From NCBI RefSeq assembly GCF_000759975.1, contig NZ_JNAM01000010.1, positions 186,001 through 250,000 of the forward strand: DNA of 64,000 bases, given 5' to 3'. The translations under genes and the position numbers were made by a program. The notes beneath the pieces were generated by a model. It was not told where the DNA came from, did not search any database, and was given only the letters and a program-made list of their open reading frames with translations. Position 1 is the stretch's first letter. Every line of letters starts with the position of its first letter. Below are positions 18,080 through 21,152 of the stretch, piece by piece. This DNA is from Prochlorococcus marinus str. MIT 9302. GTDB taxonomy: Bacteria; Cyanobacteriota; Cyanobacteriia; PCC-6307; Cyanobiaceae.

Positions 18080-19129
18080 TTGAAGACTTTAACCATAATA
18101 AAACCTGATGATTGGCATTTACATTTAAGAGAAGGTCTTGTATTAAAAAATATCATTCAGTTTACTTCGGAATATTTTGGAAGAGCCATTGTCATGCCAA
18201 ATACTAAAAGTCCCATAACATCAATCAATAGCGCTATTTCTTATAGGAAATCTATTGTTGAAGCATTACCTGAAAGTTCTAATTTTGAACCATTAATGAC
18301 AATTTATCTTACAGATGAGACTGATAAAGGGCAACTAATTAATGGTTTTAAAAATAATGTTTTTTTTGCAGCAAAATTATATCCTGCTAATGCCACAACA
18401 AATTCCAGTCATGGAATTAGGAAAATAGAAAATCTATATAAGATCTTTGAATTAATGCAAGATTCTGGAATGCCTCTTTTAATTCATGGGGAAGTGACTG
18501 ATTCTGAAGTAGATGTATTCGATAGAGAAGAAGTTTTTATAGATAAAGAACTTTCTCAAATAACCAAAAGATTTCCAAAATTAAAAATCGTTCTAGAACA
18601 TATAACCACCTCTTATGCAGTGGATTTTGTTCAAGAAAATAATATTGGGGCTACTATCACTCCGCATCATTTGCATATAAATAGAAATGCAATGTTTTTT
18701 GGAGGCTTGAATAGTGATTTTTACTGCTTACCAGTTGCTAAGAGGGAAAATAATAGACTCGCTTTAAGGAGAGCGGCAACAAGTGGGGAAAAATGTTTTT
18801 TCTTGGGGACTGACTCAGCTCCACACCTTAGGAAGTGGAAGGCTTTTTGTGGATGTGCAGGCATTTTTAATTCGCCAGTAGCAATAGAAAGCTATTTAAC
18901 AGTTTTCGAAGAGGAGGATGCTCTAGATAATTTTGAAAAGTTTGCAAGTTTGAATGGCCCTAATTTTTATAATGTCCCCCCAAATAAAGAAAAATTAAAA
19001 TTAGTTTCTAGACCTAATAAAATTAAAGAATATATTGATGTTGTTGAGGAAAAAAATATTGTCGGACAAATAAAACCATTTCATGCAGGTGAAACTTTAC
19101 AATGGCAAGTAGAAGGGATAGTAAATTAA
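18080..19129 (+). CDS. pyrC: Dihydroorotase (type II, PyrC)
   Basis: This 349-residue zinc amidohydrolase closes N-carbamoyl-aspartate to dihydroorotate in pyrimidine synthesis. It has the metal-binding WHLHLREG near the N terminus, the carboxylated lysine in FFAAKLYPANATTNS, ligands in LIHGEVTD and VLEHITT, and the catalytic GTDSAPH. The start is TTG at 18080, since MKTLTIIKPDDWHLH gives the family N terminus and no ATG is in place. It is the last ordinary gene before the tRNA-Leu island; the left repeat begins 24 bases after its stop. Confidence 0.95.
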   Translation: MKTLTIIKPDDWHLHLREGLVLKNIIQFTSEYFGRAIVMPNTKSPITSINSAISYRKSIVEALPESSNFEPLMTIYLTDETDKGQLINGFKNNVFFAAKLYPANATTNSSHGIRKIENLYKIFELMQDSGMPLLIHGEVTDSEVDVFDREEVFIDKELSQITKRFPKLKIVLEHITTSYAVDFVQENNIGATITPHHLHINRNAMFFGGLNSDFYCLPVAKRENNRLALRRAATSGEKCFFLGTDSAPHLRKWKAFCGCAGIFNSPVAIESYLTVFEEEDALDNFEKFASLNGPNFYNVPPNKEKLKLVSRPNKIKEYIDVVEEKNIVGQIKPFHAGETLQWQVEGIVN

Positions 19130-19153: not shown

Positions 19154-19270
19154 AAAAGTGTAAATATTCCAATTTTTCTTGGTTAAATGGGTTGCTTTCG
19201 GCTACGATTAAATAGCGCAAATTCCTTATGGGAGTGTGGCGGAATTGGTAGACGCGCCGGACTTAAAATC
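19154..19270. repeat. Left copy of tRNA-Leu flanking repeat
   Basis: 117 bases that align to 20680-20795. The first 76 bases correspond to the region upstream of tRNA-Leu and differ at about nine positions plus one inserted base. The last 41 bases match the 5' half of the tRNA without a difference. The match stops abruptly after 19270, on the 3' side of the anticodon loop. It marks the left edge of the small island. Confidence 0.9.
19230..19270 (+). pseudogene. Truncated tRNA-Leu(UAA), 5' half only
   Basis: Bases identical to positions 1-41 of the complete tRNA-Leu at 20755-20840: acceptor 5' strand GGGAGTG, D arm and the anticodon loop with TAA. After 19270 the sequence diverges. There is no 3' anticodon-stem strand, variable arm, T arm or acceptor 3' strand, so it cannot fold as a tRNA. 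It is best read as the host tRNA remnant left when an element inserted through the anticodon region. Its retained promoter-like upstream region could still be transcribed. Confidence 0.88.
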
Positions 19271-19308
19271 TAACCGATAATTAAATACACTAGCGTACAG
19301 TACTTTTA

Positions 19309-19332
19309 GGGATTGGGTAAAAACCCAGTCCC
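19309..19332 (+). terminator. Strong hairpin downstream of the truncated tRNA
   Basis: GGGATTGGGT (19309-19318) pairs with ACCCAGTCCC (19323-19332), ten pairs including one T-G wobble, around an AAAA loop. This GC-rich stem stands out in an AT-rich gap. Only scattered T residues follow, so it is an imperfect intrinsic terminator. It could end transcripts starting from the tRNA-like promoter on the left, or it could belong to the element end. Confidence 0.45.
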
Positions 19333-19372
19333 TTACTTAATTTATAACCTGTCCACATTCGTAAATTTATCC

Positions 19373-19390
19373 AACTTATATCTAGCGCGT
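19373..19390. repeat. Left short direct repeat bracketing the cargo genes
   Basis: AACTTATATCTAGCGCGT, whose last ten bases TCTAGCGCGT recur exactly at 20657-20666 in the same orientation, with a similar AACTT..ATA flank. It ends two bases before the stop codon of the first cargo gene. GCGCG-containing words are uncommon in DNA this AT-rich, so chance is unlikely though not excluded. Confidence 0.6.
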
Positions 19391-19391
19391 T

Positions 19392-19991
19392 TTATTGGCA
19401 TACTTTACGGTTCTTCCAGACGGGAGAATTACAATTGATATTGCCTTTCATTCCTTTTCCGGTTGTTTTTATAGACCAATCTTTTATTGGTGGATTTTCA
19501 TATGGATTTAACCCTTTATCTCTACCGTGAGTATCCTGTGGACCCTGGCTATTTGGGTATCGATAATTTGGAACAGGAAGAGCAATCTGCTTTTTCCACC
19601 TGATTAATGCTTTTGCAAAATCTCTATGAGCCTTCTCATTCGTAAAAATAAATAAAGCCTCTCTTATTTCTCCATTCAGAGATTTATAAGTTAAATAACT
19701 ATAGTGATCAACGGAACTATTAAGGAATTTAAAAGGATCTCCATCATTATCGTATCGATAACGGATGTATTGTGAAGATTCAATTCCACCTTGACCTTCA
19801 ACCCACATTGCAGGTCCTTGGAAACGTATTCGACATTTATTCTTCATTGATCTGCACCAACCATCGTGGTAACTTTTTGGACTGTTTTGAAATGTCCCAA
19901 TAGGAAAATCAGCATCTCCAAAATCTGCCTTCACTTCATAAAAACAAGAAATTAAGAAGGATAAAAATAATATCTTTATATATTTTTTCAA
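19392..19991 (-). CDS. Exported hypothetical protein, tRNA-Leu island cargo
   Basis: I do not recognise a named family. From the TTG at 19991 it has 199 residues and opens with a good signal peptide (KKYIKILFLSFLISCFYEVKA). The mature part has paired cysteines (GWCRSMKNKCRIRF and, at the end, INCNSPVWKNRKVC), suggesting disulfides outside the cytoplasm, and a Gly/Trp/Gln-rich GPAMWVEGQGGIESSQYIRYRYDNDGD segment (given as landmark). A TTG at 20018 is an alternative start but would overlap the upstream gene by 23 bases; from 19991 the gap is 4 bases. It sits inside the island and is probably co-transcribed with the next gene. Confidence 0.8.
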   Translation of the reverse strand: MKKYIKILFLSFLISCFYEVKADFGDADFPIGTFQNSPKSYHDGWCRSMKNKCRIRFQGPAMWVEGQGGIESSQYIRYRYDNDGDPFKFLNSSVDHYSYLTYKSLNGEIREALFIFTNEKAHRDFAKALIRWKKQIALPVPNYRYPNSQGPQDTHGRDKGLNPYENPPIKDWSIKTTGKGMKGNINCNSPVWKNRKVCQ

Positions 19992-19995
19992 TTTT

Positions 19996-20490
19996 TTACC
20001 TACTCTCCAAACATTCAAACCCTTTGTATTTTAAGTGAAATCTTGCTCTCTGACTCGACATCCAAAGAACTCCTTGTTCTTCACATTGATCAAGATCTTT
20101 CATCGGAATAACTGATGATGAAGATCCATTTACATAGCCAGTGAGAATCATATGAGCACTACCCTGACTTATACCACCAGCCTCTTTTAAAACTTTTAGA
20201 CTTTCAGACTTTGATTTTTCTAATTGATTTAAAGCAAAGTTAGTTTGATTTCTATAATCTTGAAGCGAAGAACTTTTCAACTTATTTAATTCACTTAATA
20301 TTTCTTCCTTAGCAGTTTTAATTTCATTAAGAGACTCTTTTCTTACTTTTTTTAATTCAATTAAAGTTTTTGAAATTTCAATTTCAGAATTATTGCTTTT
20401 CTTAGTTGTATTTAATATTTGAGTAGTTGATAAGGCTAGTATCCCTATGGTACTTATTGTTGCTAGAGATTTATAAAACAGATTATTCAT
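19996..20490 (-). CDS. Membrane-anchored coiled-coil protein, tRNA-Leu island cargo
   Basis: No recognised family. The 164 residues comprise one N-terminal hydrophobic segment (about 8-27, LATISTIGILALSTTQIL), a charged heptad-like stretch (about 36-105, rich in K, E, S and L) that should form a coiled coil, and a C-terminal domain of about 55 residues. That domain has the two-cysteine pattern IPMKDLDQCEEQG ... KGFECLESR. The layout suggests a signal anchor with the coiled coil and small domain outside the plasma membrane. It starts at ATG 20488-20490 and is the first gene of the two-gene cargo unit. Confidence 0.8.
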   Translation of the reverse strand: MNNLFYKSLATISTIGILALSTTQILNTTKKSNNSEIEISKTLIELKKVRKESLNEIKTAKEEILSELNKLKSSSLQDYRNQTNFALNQLEKSKSESLKVLKEAGGISQGSAHMILTGYVNGSSSSVIPMKDLDQCEEQGVLWMSSQRARFHLKYKGFECLESR

Positions 20491-20646
20491 TCTTGAAACT
20501 TTTACTTTTTTAAAATAATAATATTATTAAGTTTGGTTGTCTTTGATTATTTAAAAGACTTAAAAGTAATTCCTAAGTAAAACGTTTTAACTAATTGATA
20601 GGAATTTTATAACTAATAAAATAGATCTTTCAATTTGATTAGAAAT

Positions 20647-20666
20647 AACTTGATAATCTAGCGCGT
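20647..20666. repeat. Right short direct repeat bracketing the cargo genes
   Basis: AACTTGATAATCTAGCGCGT shares its last ten bases with 19381-19390 and has a related flank. It lies 13 bases before the right copy of the tRNA-Leu repeat. Together the two short repeats enclose both cargo genes and their upstream region. Confidence 0.6.
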
Positions 20667-20679
20667 CCATTAAATCCAC

Positions 20680-20795
20680 AAAAGTGTAAATATTGGGATA
20701 TTTTTTGGTTAAATGGGTTACTTTCAGCTACGATTAGAAAGCGCAAATTCCTTTGGGAGTGTGGCGGAATTGGTAGACGCGCCGGACTTAAAATC
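20680..20795. repeat. Right copy of tRNA-Leu flanking repeat
   Basis: 116 bases aligning to 19154-19270. They contain the upstream region of the intact tRNA gene and its first 41 bases. Divergence from the left copy is confined to the upstream part (about nine substitutions and one indel in 76 bases), while the tRNA part is identical. The upstream part is expected to carry the working tRNA promoter. Confidence 0.9.
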
Positions 20796-20840
20796 CGTCG
20801 AGCGATTTAGCTCGTGGGGGTTCAAGTCCCCCCACTCCCA
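20755..20840 (+). tRNA. trnL: tRNA-Leu (anticodon UAA)
   Basis: An 86-base class II tRNA. The acceptor stem GGGAGTG pairs with CACTCCC at 20833-20839, followed by discriminator A. It has a D arm with GGCGGAATTGGTAGACG, an anticodon loop CTTAAAA (20787-20793) with anticodon TAA, a long variable arm GTCGAGCGATTTAGCTCG, and a T arm GGGGGTTCAAGTCCCCC. CCA is not fully encoded. No group I intron interrupts the anticodon loop, unlike tRNA-Leu(UAA) of many cyanobacteria. This is the functional copy at the right edge of the island. Confidence 0.97.
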
Positions 20841-20918
20841 TTATTTAATTAATTATTTTTAGTTCTGACGATGACTTTCAATAATTGTTATGTTTTAACT
20901 AAGCAACCATAAATCAAA

Positions 20919-21152
20919 ATGGAAAGTTTTTTCAATAATTCATTCGCTACTTTAATTGCTTATATTGCTGTTATTTCCATATATTTATTGGTTATTCCAT
21001 TATTATTATTTTACTGGATGAATAATAGATGGAATGTTATGGGCAAATTTGAAAGATTAGGAATTTATGGACTTGTATTTCTGTTCTTCCCAGGTTTAAT
21101 TTTATTTTCCCCATTTTTAAATCTTAGATTAAAAGGAAGTGGTAAAGGGTAA
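20919..21152 (+). CDS. ndhL: NAD(P)H-quinone oxidoreductase subunit L
   Basis: A 77-residue membrane subunit of the cyanobacterial NDH-1 complex, which carries out cyclic and respiratory electron flow and supports CO2 uptake. Two hydrophobic helices (about 9-33 and 47-67) flank the motif [17 protein letters not shown], characteristic of NdhL. It is followed by a DUF3007 gene four bases later and then trpA, a linkage I associate with many cyanobacteria. Confidence 0.93.

Follow-up and report, generated by a model that had tools for sequence, protein, structure and literature searches.

A short piece of DNA of about 1.5 kb, with two host-like genes, is seated within the tRNA-Leu gene of Prochlorococcus marinus MIT 9302. 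The window analyzed here is the whole 64,000-nucleotide stretch at positions 186,001 to 250,000 of contig NZ_JNAM01000010.1, and coordinates refer to it unless another locus is named. The features of the island and its neighbors are given below, with the gene names pyrC and ndhL taken from an earlier sequence-only reading of this DNA.

18080..19129, plus strand: pyrC, left neighbor of the site, on the same contig as the tRNA in 114 genomes
19154..19228, plus strand: native tRNA-Leu promoter region, now separated from the tRNA (100% over 75 nt to the promoter of the empty-site relative L168)
19229..19268, plus strand: stranded 5' half of tRNA-Leu(UAA), attL core (40/40 match to the tRNA; comparison of left junctions)
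19269..19395, plus strand: left end of the element, a T7-like cyanophage attP arm (phage matches; family alignment A1)
Landmarks of the left end: CTAGCG at 19290, hairpin at 19308-19334, ATCTAGCGCG at 19380-19389
19392..20018, minus strand: cargo orfA, 208 aa, hydrophobic N-terminus
19996..20490, minus strand: cargo orfB, 164 aa, paired with orfA here and elsewhere
20656..20669, plus strand: right arm of the element, ATCTAGCGCGTCCA, counterpart of the arm at the phage integrase gene end
20680..20753, plus strand: foreign, host-type promoter now preceding the tRNA (at best 93% to 85 unoccupied loci)
20754..20841, plus strand: intact tRNA-Leu(UAA), attR (ARAGORN)
20919..21152, plus strand: ndhL, right neighbor

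The upstream parts of the two copies (19154-19227 and 20680-20753) are 88% identical over 74 bases without a gap. The 5' tRNA part is identical between the left and right copies, and the identity extends two bases past the half, to 19270. When the right copy was searched against its own genome by BLAST, the left copy was found at 91% identity (E 1.7e-41) and the next match had an E value of 7.9e-9, so the duplication is not due to chance. The duplicated promoter plus 5' tRNA half described by the sequence-only reading is thus real, and the only complete tRNA that ARAGORN detected in the region lies in the right copy, as that reading had stated. Its coordinates for the duplication held, with two corrections: judging from the acceptor stem, the tRNA probably starts at 20755, and the island contains two overlapping minus-strand ORFs. 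The plus strand of the window has three copies of the motif CTAGCG, all within the element ends.

Comparison of the left junctions placed the crossover within the anticodon loop (CTTAAAA), and its position was identical in more than 20 left junctions compared. The left promoter is 100% identical to that of an empty relative, and the right promoter reached at best 93% identity among 85 unoccupied loci. Judged by these identities, the native promoter and 5' half (attL) are those of the left copy, and the right promoter is foreign, in agreement with the earlier proposal that the promoter was replaced and that one copy came from outside. The same reading had called the event recent, and this is supported by a left half that still matches the tRNA at all 40 bases.

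Occupancy of the site in the genus and cargo of the inserts

The tRNA region was sought in 151 genomes of the genus (that of MIT 9302 included), and a strong match to the locus was obtained in 116 and none in 35. A search for pyrC in these 35 genomes, run without an internal positive control, gave 0/35; we read this as incomplete sequence, set the 35 genomes aside and rejected a large hidden insert there. G045 and G108, in which the locus is broken by contig ends, were excluded, leaving 114 genomes with the locus on one contig. The gap between pyrC and the tRNA measured 101-127 bp in 76 of them (empty sites), 177-195 bp in 9, and 377-3556 bp in 29. This comparison of the pyrC-ndhL interval across relatives had been proposed by the sequence-only reading, and the empty sites at 76/114 loci support its account of an insertion through a crossover in the anticodon loop. 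The site is also empty in G131 and G059, the closest relatives of the window judged by core proteins. A similar piece is present in roughly a fifth of the related genomes, in most cases with different genes.

On a weakly resolved core tree of pyrC, ndhL and trpA (61 of 111 inner branches open), 25 changes of occupancy were counted vs. 26.0 with shuffled labels, i.e., occupancy is scattered; strongly supported branches alone force at least seven changes. No autonomous relative of these inserts (hereafter cassettes) was found at the tRNA-Leu locus in the 151 genomes, the largest insert being 3.6 kb. A limited literature search found no cassettes of this kind in print.

Searches of orfA against Pfam and PHROGs returned no family, and no solved structure was matched by its sequence. 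The middle of orfB is coiled-coil-like in our own reading. The PADLOC match of orfA was very weak (E 0.0068) and was disregarded, and orfA as a known defence gene was rejected. Neither orfA nor orfB had a match in 50,697 phage records, and a pattern search of IMG/VR contigs did not find orfA or the TPR cargo. The cargo as phage gene was rejected, since orfA and orfB lack a phage match; the exception is the cargo of L066 (2711-3361 of the reoriented locus), a 2OG-Fe(II) oxygenase matching PHROG 81, a phage moron family. The orfA/orfB pair, or orfA with another small partner, is also found elsewhere in other genomes. Relatives of orfA next to a small partner gene lie at L309, L311, L312 and L313, and they occur twice in G052.

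A Pfam scan of 22 cargo proteins gave an outer-membrane barrel, a YadA anchor, MORN, TPR, PspC, rhomboid, DUF805, TM2, and 2OG-Fe(II) oxygenase domains, with the remainder lacking a domain; no integrase family was among them. Convincing genes for packaging or for hijacking of regulation were absent from these 22 proteins (Pfam) and from the eight each that were searched with PHROGs and PADLOC. A Phage_scaffold match in a TM2 protein scored 17.4 bits vs. a cut-off of 35 and lies in a coiled-coil stretch. In a crude test on ORFs of at least 100 aa, a hydrophobic N-terminus was found in 21/26 cargo ORFs, 7/37 ORFs of the window and 51/205 ORFs elsewhere; since the cargo includes related, non-independent sequences, the P values of this comparison are too small. 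The cargo appears to be host-like and to encode mostly membrane or secreted proteins.

Phage-type ends, gene remnants and signs of movement

Just inside the crossover, a conserved end of ∼125 bp is present in most inserts; it belongs to one of two related kinds, families A and B. The consensus fold of the central hairpin is weak in family A (-0.55 kcal/mol) and better in family B (-5.05 kcal/mol), and pairs changed on both sides numbered two in A (2/5 pairs) and two in B. Among the best 16-23 candidates per genome, covariance models of the ends had matches in the 151 genus genomes at the tRNA-Leu locus only, and the family A model matched only the MIT 9302 genome (1/201) in 201 family-level genomes.

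In a distant DNA search of phage records, the half plus left end of the window matched the Prochlorococcus podovirus P-SSP7 at 88% (mean of two aligned pieces, E 3e-42), at a position between the integrase and T7-like RNA polymerase genes. The same segment matched an IMG/VR locus (L227) at 93% over 168 nt. The right arm of the island corresponds to ATCTAGCGTGTCCA at the end of the P-SSP7 integrase gene, and the P-SSP7 version of this arm is present in G041 (L036). Left ends could be aligned to phage att regions in 25 of 30 island sequences, the others being L037, L041, L048, L056 and L058. As expected of a T7-like cyanophage prophage, attL and attR are present at the tRNA-Leu 5' half, together with phage arms. 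The pattern ATCCAACWTATATCTAGCGCG had no exact match in IMG/VR; related ends do occur there, and the exact pattern is thus too strict.

The phage side was represented by 103 IMG/VR stretches with the exact 28-base half, together with P-SSP7, P-SSP2 and P-SSP3 (106 loci). Profiles made from cassette ends only matched 55 of these loci, in 55/55 cases in the interval from the tRNA half to the polymerase gene; an integrase match was also present in 46 of the 55. Distances were computed on 93 loci, after removal of 13 in which the half runs on into a complete tRNA-Leu. The closest phage-side left end was 92% identical for the window and 71-98% for other cassettes, and the closest phage differs from cassette to cassette. 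In P-SSP2 (L306:2005-2909), the homologue of the P-SSP3 integrase is spread over two reading frames and is absent from the annotated genes.

The promoters of the two families are of different kinds. B cassettes have phage-like promoters, and no B-type promoter was found at the 85 unoccupied loci (less than 70% identity to two B promoters). A cassettes combine a phage arm with a host-type promoter, unlike the promoters of the phages themselves. Among the 106 phage-side loci a host-type promoter was found in L295 only, and the right end of family A therefore differs from a simple phage end. L295 (IMG/VR, positions 1-300) has a host-type tRNA-Leu promoter and 5' half followed by a T7-like left end and the polymerase gene, and it may be a candidate junction of a truly integrated phage.

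Remnants of phage genes were detected by tblastn in the 30 island sequences. Six have decayed polymerase starts (weak in L066, E 0.007), and six have decayed ends of the integrase gene. Several of the remnants have in-frame stops, and all come from loci whose left end belongs to family B. No integrase or polymerase remnant was detected by tblastn in the cassette of the window, a family A member that has the two arms only, and no intact integrase or T7-like RNA polymerase gene was found in the island. With 21 recombinase queries at E 1e-3, no match was obtained in the 30 island sequences and all four control loci were matched; the integrase remnants are visible only at sensitive settings, and the 21 whole recombinases at this threshold detect none of them. 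A search for P-SSP7 int in the 151 genomes at E 1e-8, with no positive control among them, gave 0/151. The island is recombinase-free in these searches, as the sequence-only reading had noted. That reading had also suggested looking for a recombinase elsewhere in the genome. A 391-aa ORF just upstream of tRNA-Ser(UGA) in the MIT 9302 genome (L135:8167-9641, contig C10 near 303 kb) is a probable tyrosine recombinase by its sequence, with a PF00589 score below the cut-off. A tyrosine recombinase in a frame of ∼389 aa recurs in many genomes among those listed from the 151 of the genus and is apparently a core gene.

The TPR cargo of G101 and G021 is 96.6% identical at the amino acid level, vs. 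81, 81 and 78% for pyrC, ndhL and trpA. At the DNA level the interiors of these two cassettes are ∼95% identical and the arms 66-67%, with different phages as the closest matches of the arms. A 63-aa gene (with a PspC domain in L059) occurs with both A and B ends. Tandem arrays were found among the 29 occupied loci: L052 and L064 have three tRNA copies, with halves more decayed farther from the tRNA (36, 40, 40 and 32, 37, 40 of 40), and L065, in which the third, leftmost copy is a promoter with no recognizable half, is a likely further case. Overall, left halves match at 32-40/40 and rebuilt right halves at 39-40/40.

Origin of the cassettes and comparison with known systems

The island is a phage-ended cassette, very probably one derived from integrated T7-like cyanophages. 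For the island family as a whole, we consider it likely that these are small cassettes at tRNA-Leu(UAA) derived from T7-like cyanophages (P-SSP7 relatives), which have kept their att ends and would be inserted or moved by the integrase of an infecting podovirus. This account draws on the insertion itself, the phage-type ends, the polymerase and integrase remnants in some sister cassettes, the scattered occupancy, the tandem arrays and the near-identical cargo in distant genomes. In the phage, the attP, consisting of an arm, a promoter, the 5' tRNA half and a hairpin arm, lies between int and the gene for RNA polymerase. On integration in the anticodon loop, the native promoter would be stranded with the 5' half on the left side, and the tRNA would be rebuilt on the right, behind the promoter of the element. 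The phage interior would then have been lost, with one or two host-like proteins encoded between the retained att ends. We infer that the integrase of an infecting podovirus could excise, insert or stack cassettes in trans, which would follow the logic of cis-mobilizable elements (CIMEs). Cassettes may also recombine with phage DNA through the remnants of the polymerase start and integrase end, which would explain the mosaic ends.

Movement in trans by a phage integrase most plausibly accounts for the spread of the cassettes. Its main rival is that they are dead scars: a phage integrated, nearly all of its DNA was deleted, host genes entered and nothing moves now. The decayed integrase and polymerase edges, the decaying left halves (32-40/40) and the failure to find a recombinase in the 30 island sequences agree with such a history, but near-identical cargo at the same site in distant genomes, the same cargo with different phage ends, tandem stacking and a cargo rich in hydrophobic N-termini (21/26 vs. 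7/37 and 51/205) go beyond chance decay, and we regard the scars as unlikely. A more elaborate proposal, offered tentatively as a possibility that we rather doubt, is that the cassettes are integrase-less satellites that bear the attachment site of T7-like phages, ride their integrase in trans, swap ends with phage DNA, keep a host-type tRNA promoter and pay the host with infection-blocking envelope proteins.

The sequence-only reading had seen in the island a minimal or remnant tycheposon. Tycheposons of Prochlorococcus are tRNA-bounded flexible DNA like the cassettes, located at one of seven tRNA genes according to the passages cited (PMC10872708), and the same genus has ∼8 kb recombinase elements beside 5' halves of tRNA-Ser and tRNA-Pro. 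Yet the ends of the island match the attP of T7-like cyanophages and not those ∼8 kb elements, the end models match only the tRNA-Leu(UAA) locus in the 151 genomes (among the best 16-23 candidates per genome), and no recombinase was found; the same passages give tycheposons their own tyrosine recombinase and 4-200 kb, vs. none and 1.5 kb here. A tycheposon at tRNA-Leu was rejected on the absent recombinase and the different ends, and we consider the label very improbable. A purely local event at the tRNA, either a duplication or homologous recombination with no site-specific element involved, appears the least probable of all. The host-type right promoter of family A speaks for it, and some homologous exchange may have taken place there; as a complete account it is refuted by the phage match, and a single crossover point in more than 20 left junctions, conserved ends of two related kinds inside the crossover and the empty sites of the nearest relatives likewise stand against it.

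The ∼8 kb elements lie between a 5' half and the full tRNA at L138, L139 and L140 (tRNA-Ser UGA) and L141 (tRNA-Pro UGG). Besides a short tyrosine recombinase (PF00589, E 4.6e-22 in L138), they carry an ORF of ∼404 aa by the right end with PF00589 only below the cut-off, and their ends are unrelated to the cassette ends. These elements may be tycheposons. Downstream 3' half copies were found at tRNA-Pro/tRNA-Ser loci L120, L137 and L139, so tRNAs seem to be used in both polarities within the genus.

For the phages themselves, the cited passages of PMC8776855 report that P-SSP7 and S-TIP37 integrate into the host tRNA-Leu in the laboratory, that integrase and attP are required (S-TIP37 deletion mutants), and that T7-like cyanophages integrate at this half-tRNA but did not give rise to stable lysogens. 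Integrated P-SSP7/S-TIP37 and the cassettes are alike in attB (the tRNA-Leu 5' half) and in polarity, and the flanking arms are as in P-SSP7 (PMC8776855, passages cited). Unlike an integrated phage, the cassettes have no recognized intact int, RNA polymerase or other phage gene, are present in sequenced chromosomes and have host-like cargo. Although T7-like cyanophages have integrases, laboratory work yielded no stable lysogens (PMC8776855, same passages), and the cassettes bear on the purpose of these integrases: with inserts in 29/114 genomes, 25 with phage-type left ends, integration at this site leaves heritable DNA. The cassettes look like stable, heritable footprints of T7-like cyanophages, which suggests that these phages, regarded as killers and not residents of their hosts, leave lasting, perhaps movable traces there. 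The cassettes connect infection by lytic phages with a reservoir of host envelope genes, and they allow a direct test of the natural role of the integrase.

The cassettes also matter for reading metagenomes. Integration in the ocean was put at 1.6% for group I (PMC8776855, passage cited). When the published read counting was roughly imitated, with five hosts and one phage vs. a published database of 727 host genomes that may include cassette carriers, junction reads of 4/13 family A cassettes passed as host-phage junctions. If the satellite proposal were true, part of that 1.6% would be cassettes and not phages.

With the phage satellites PICI, PICMI and VEIME (PMC11389934, passage cited) the cassettes would share helper-phage dependence only if their mobility is real. 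Unlike those satellites, they have no recognized packaging, capsid or regulatory gene, and they are probably too short to be packaged alone. CIMEs, by the definition in the cited parts of PMC7563491, are similar in two respects: the cassettes keep both att sites and have no recombination genes, and they form tandem arrays in which decay is greatest in the copy most distant from the target gene. The origin of CIMEs lies in ICEs or IMEs, and their transfer is conjugative (PMC7563491, same parts), whereas the cassettes would come from lytic-type phages, their ends and remnants being those of phages.
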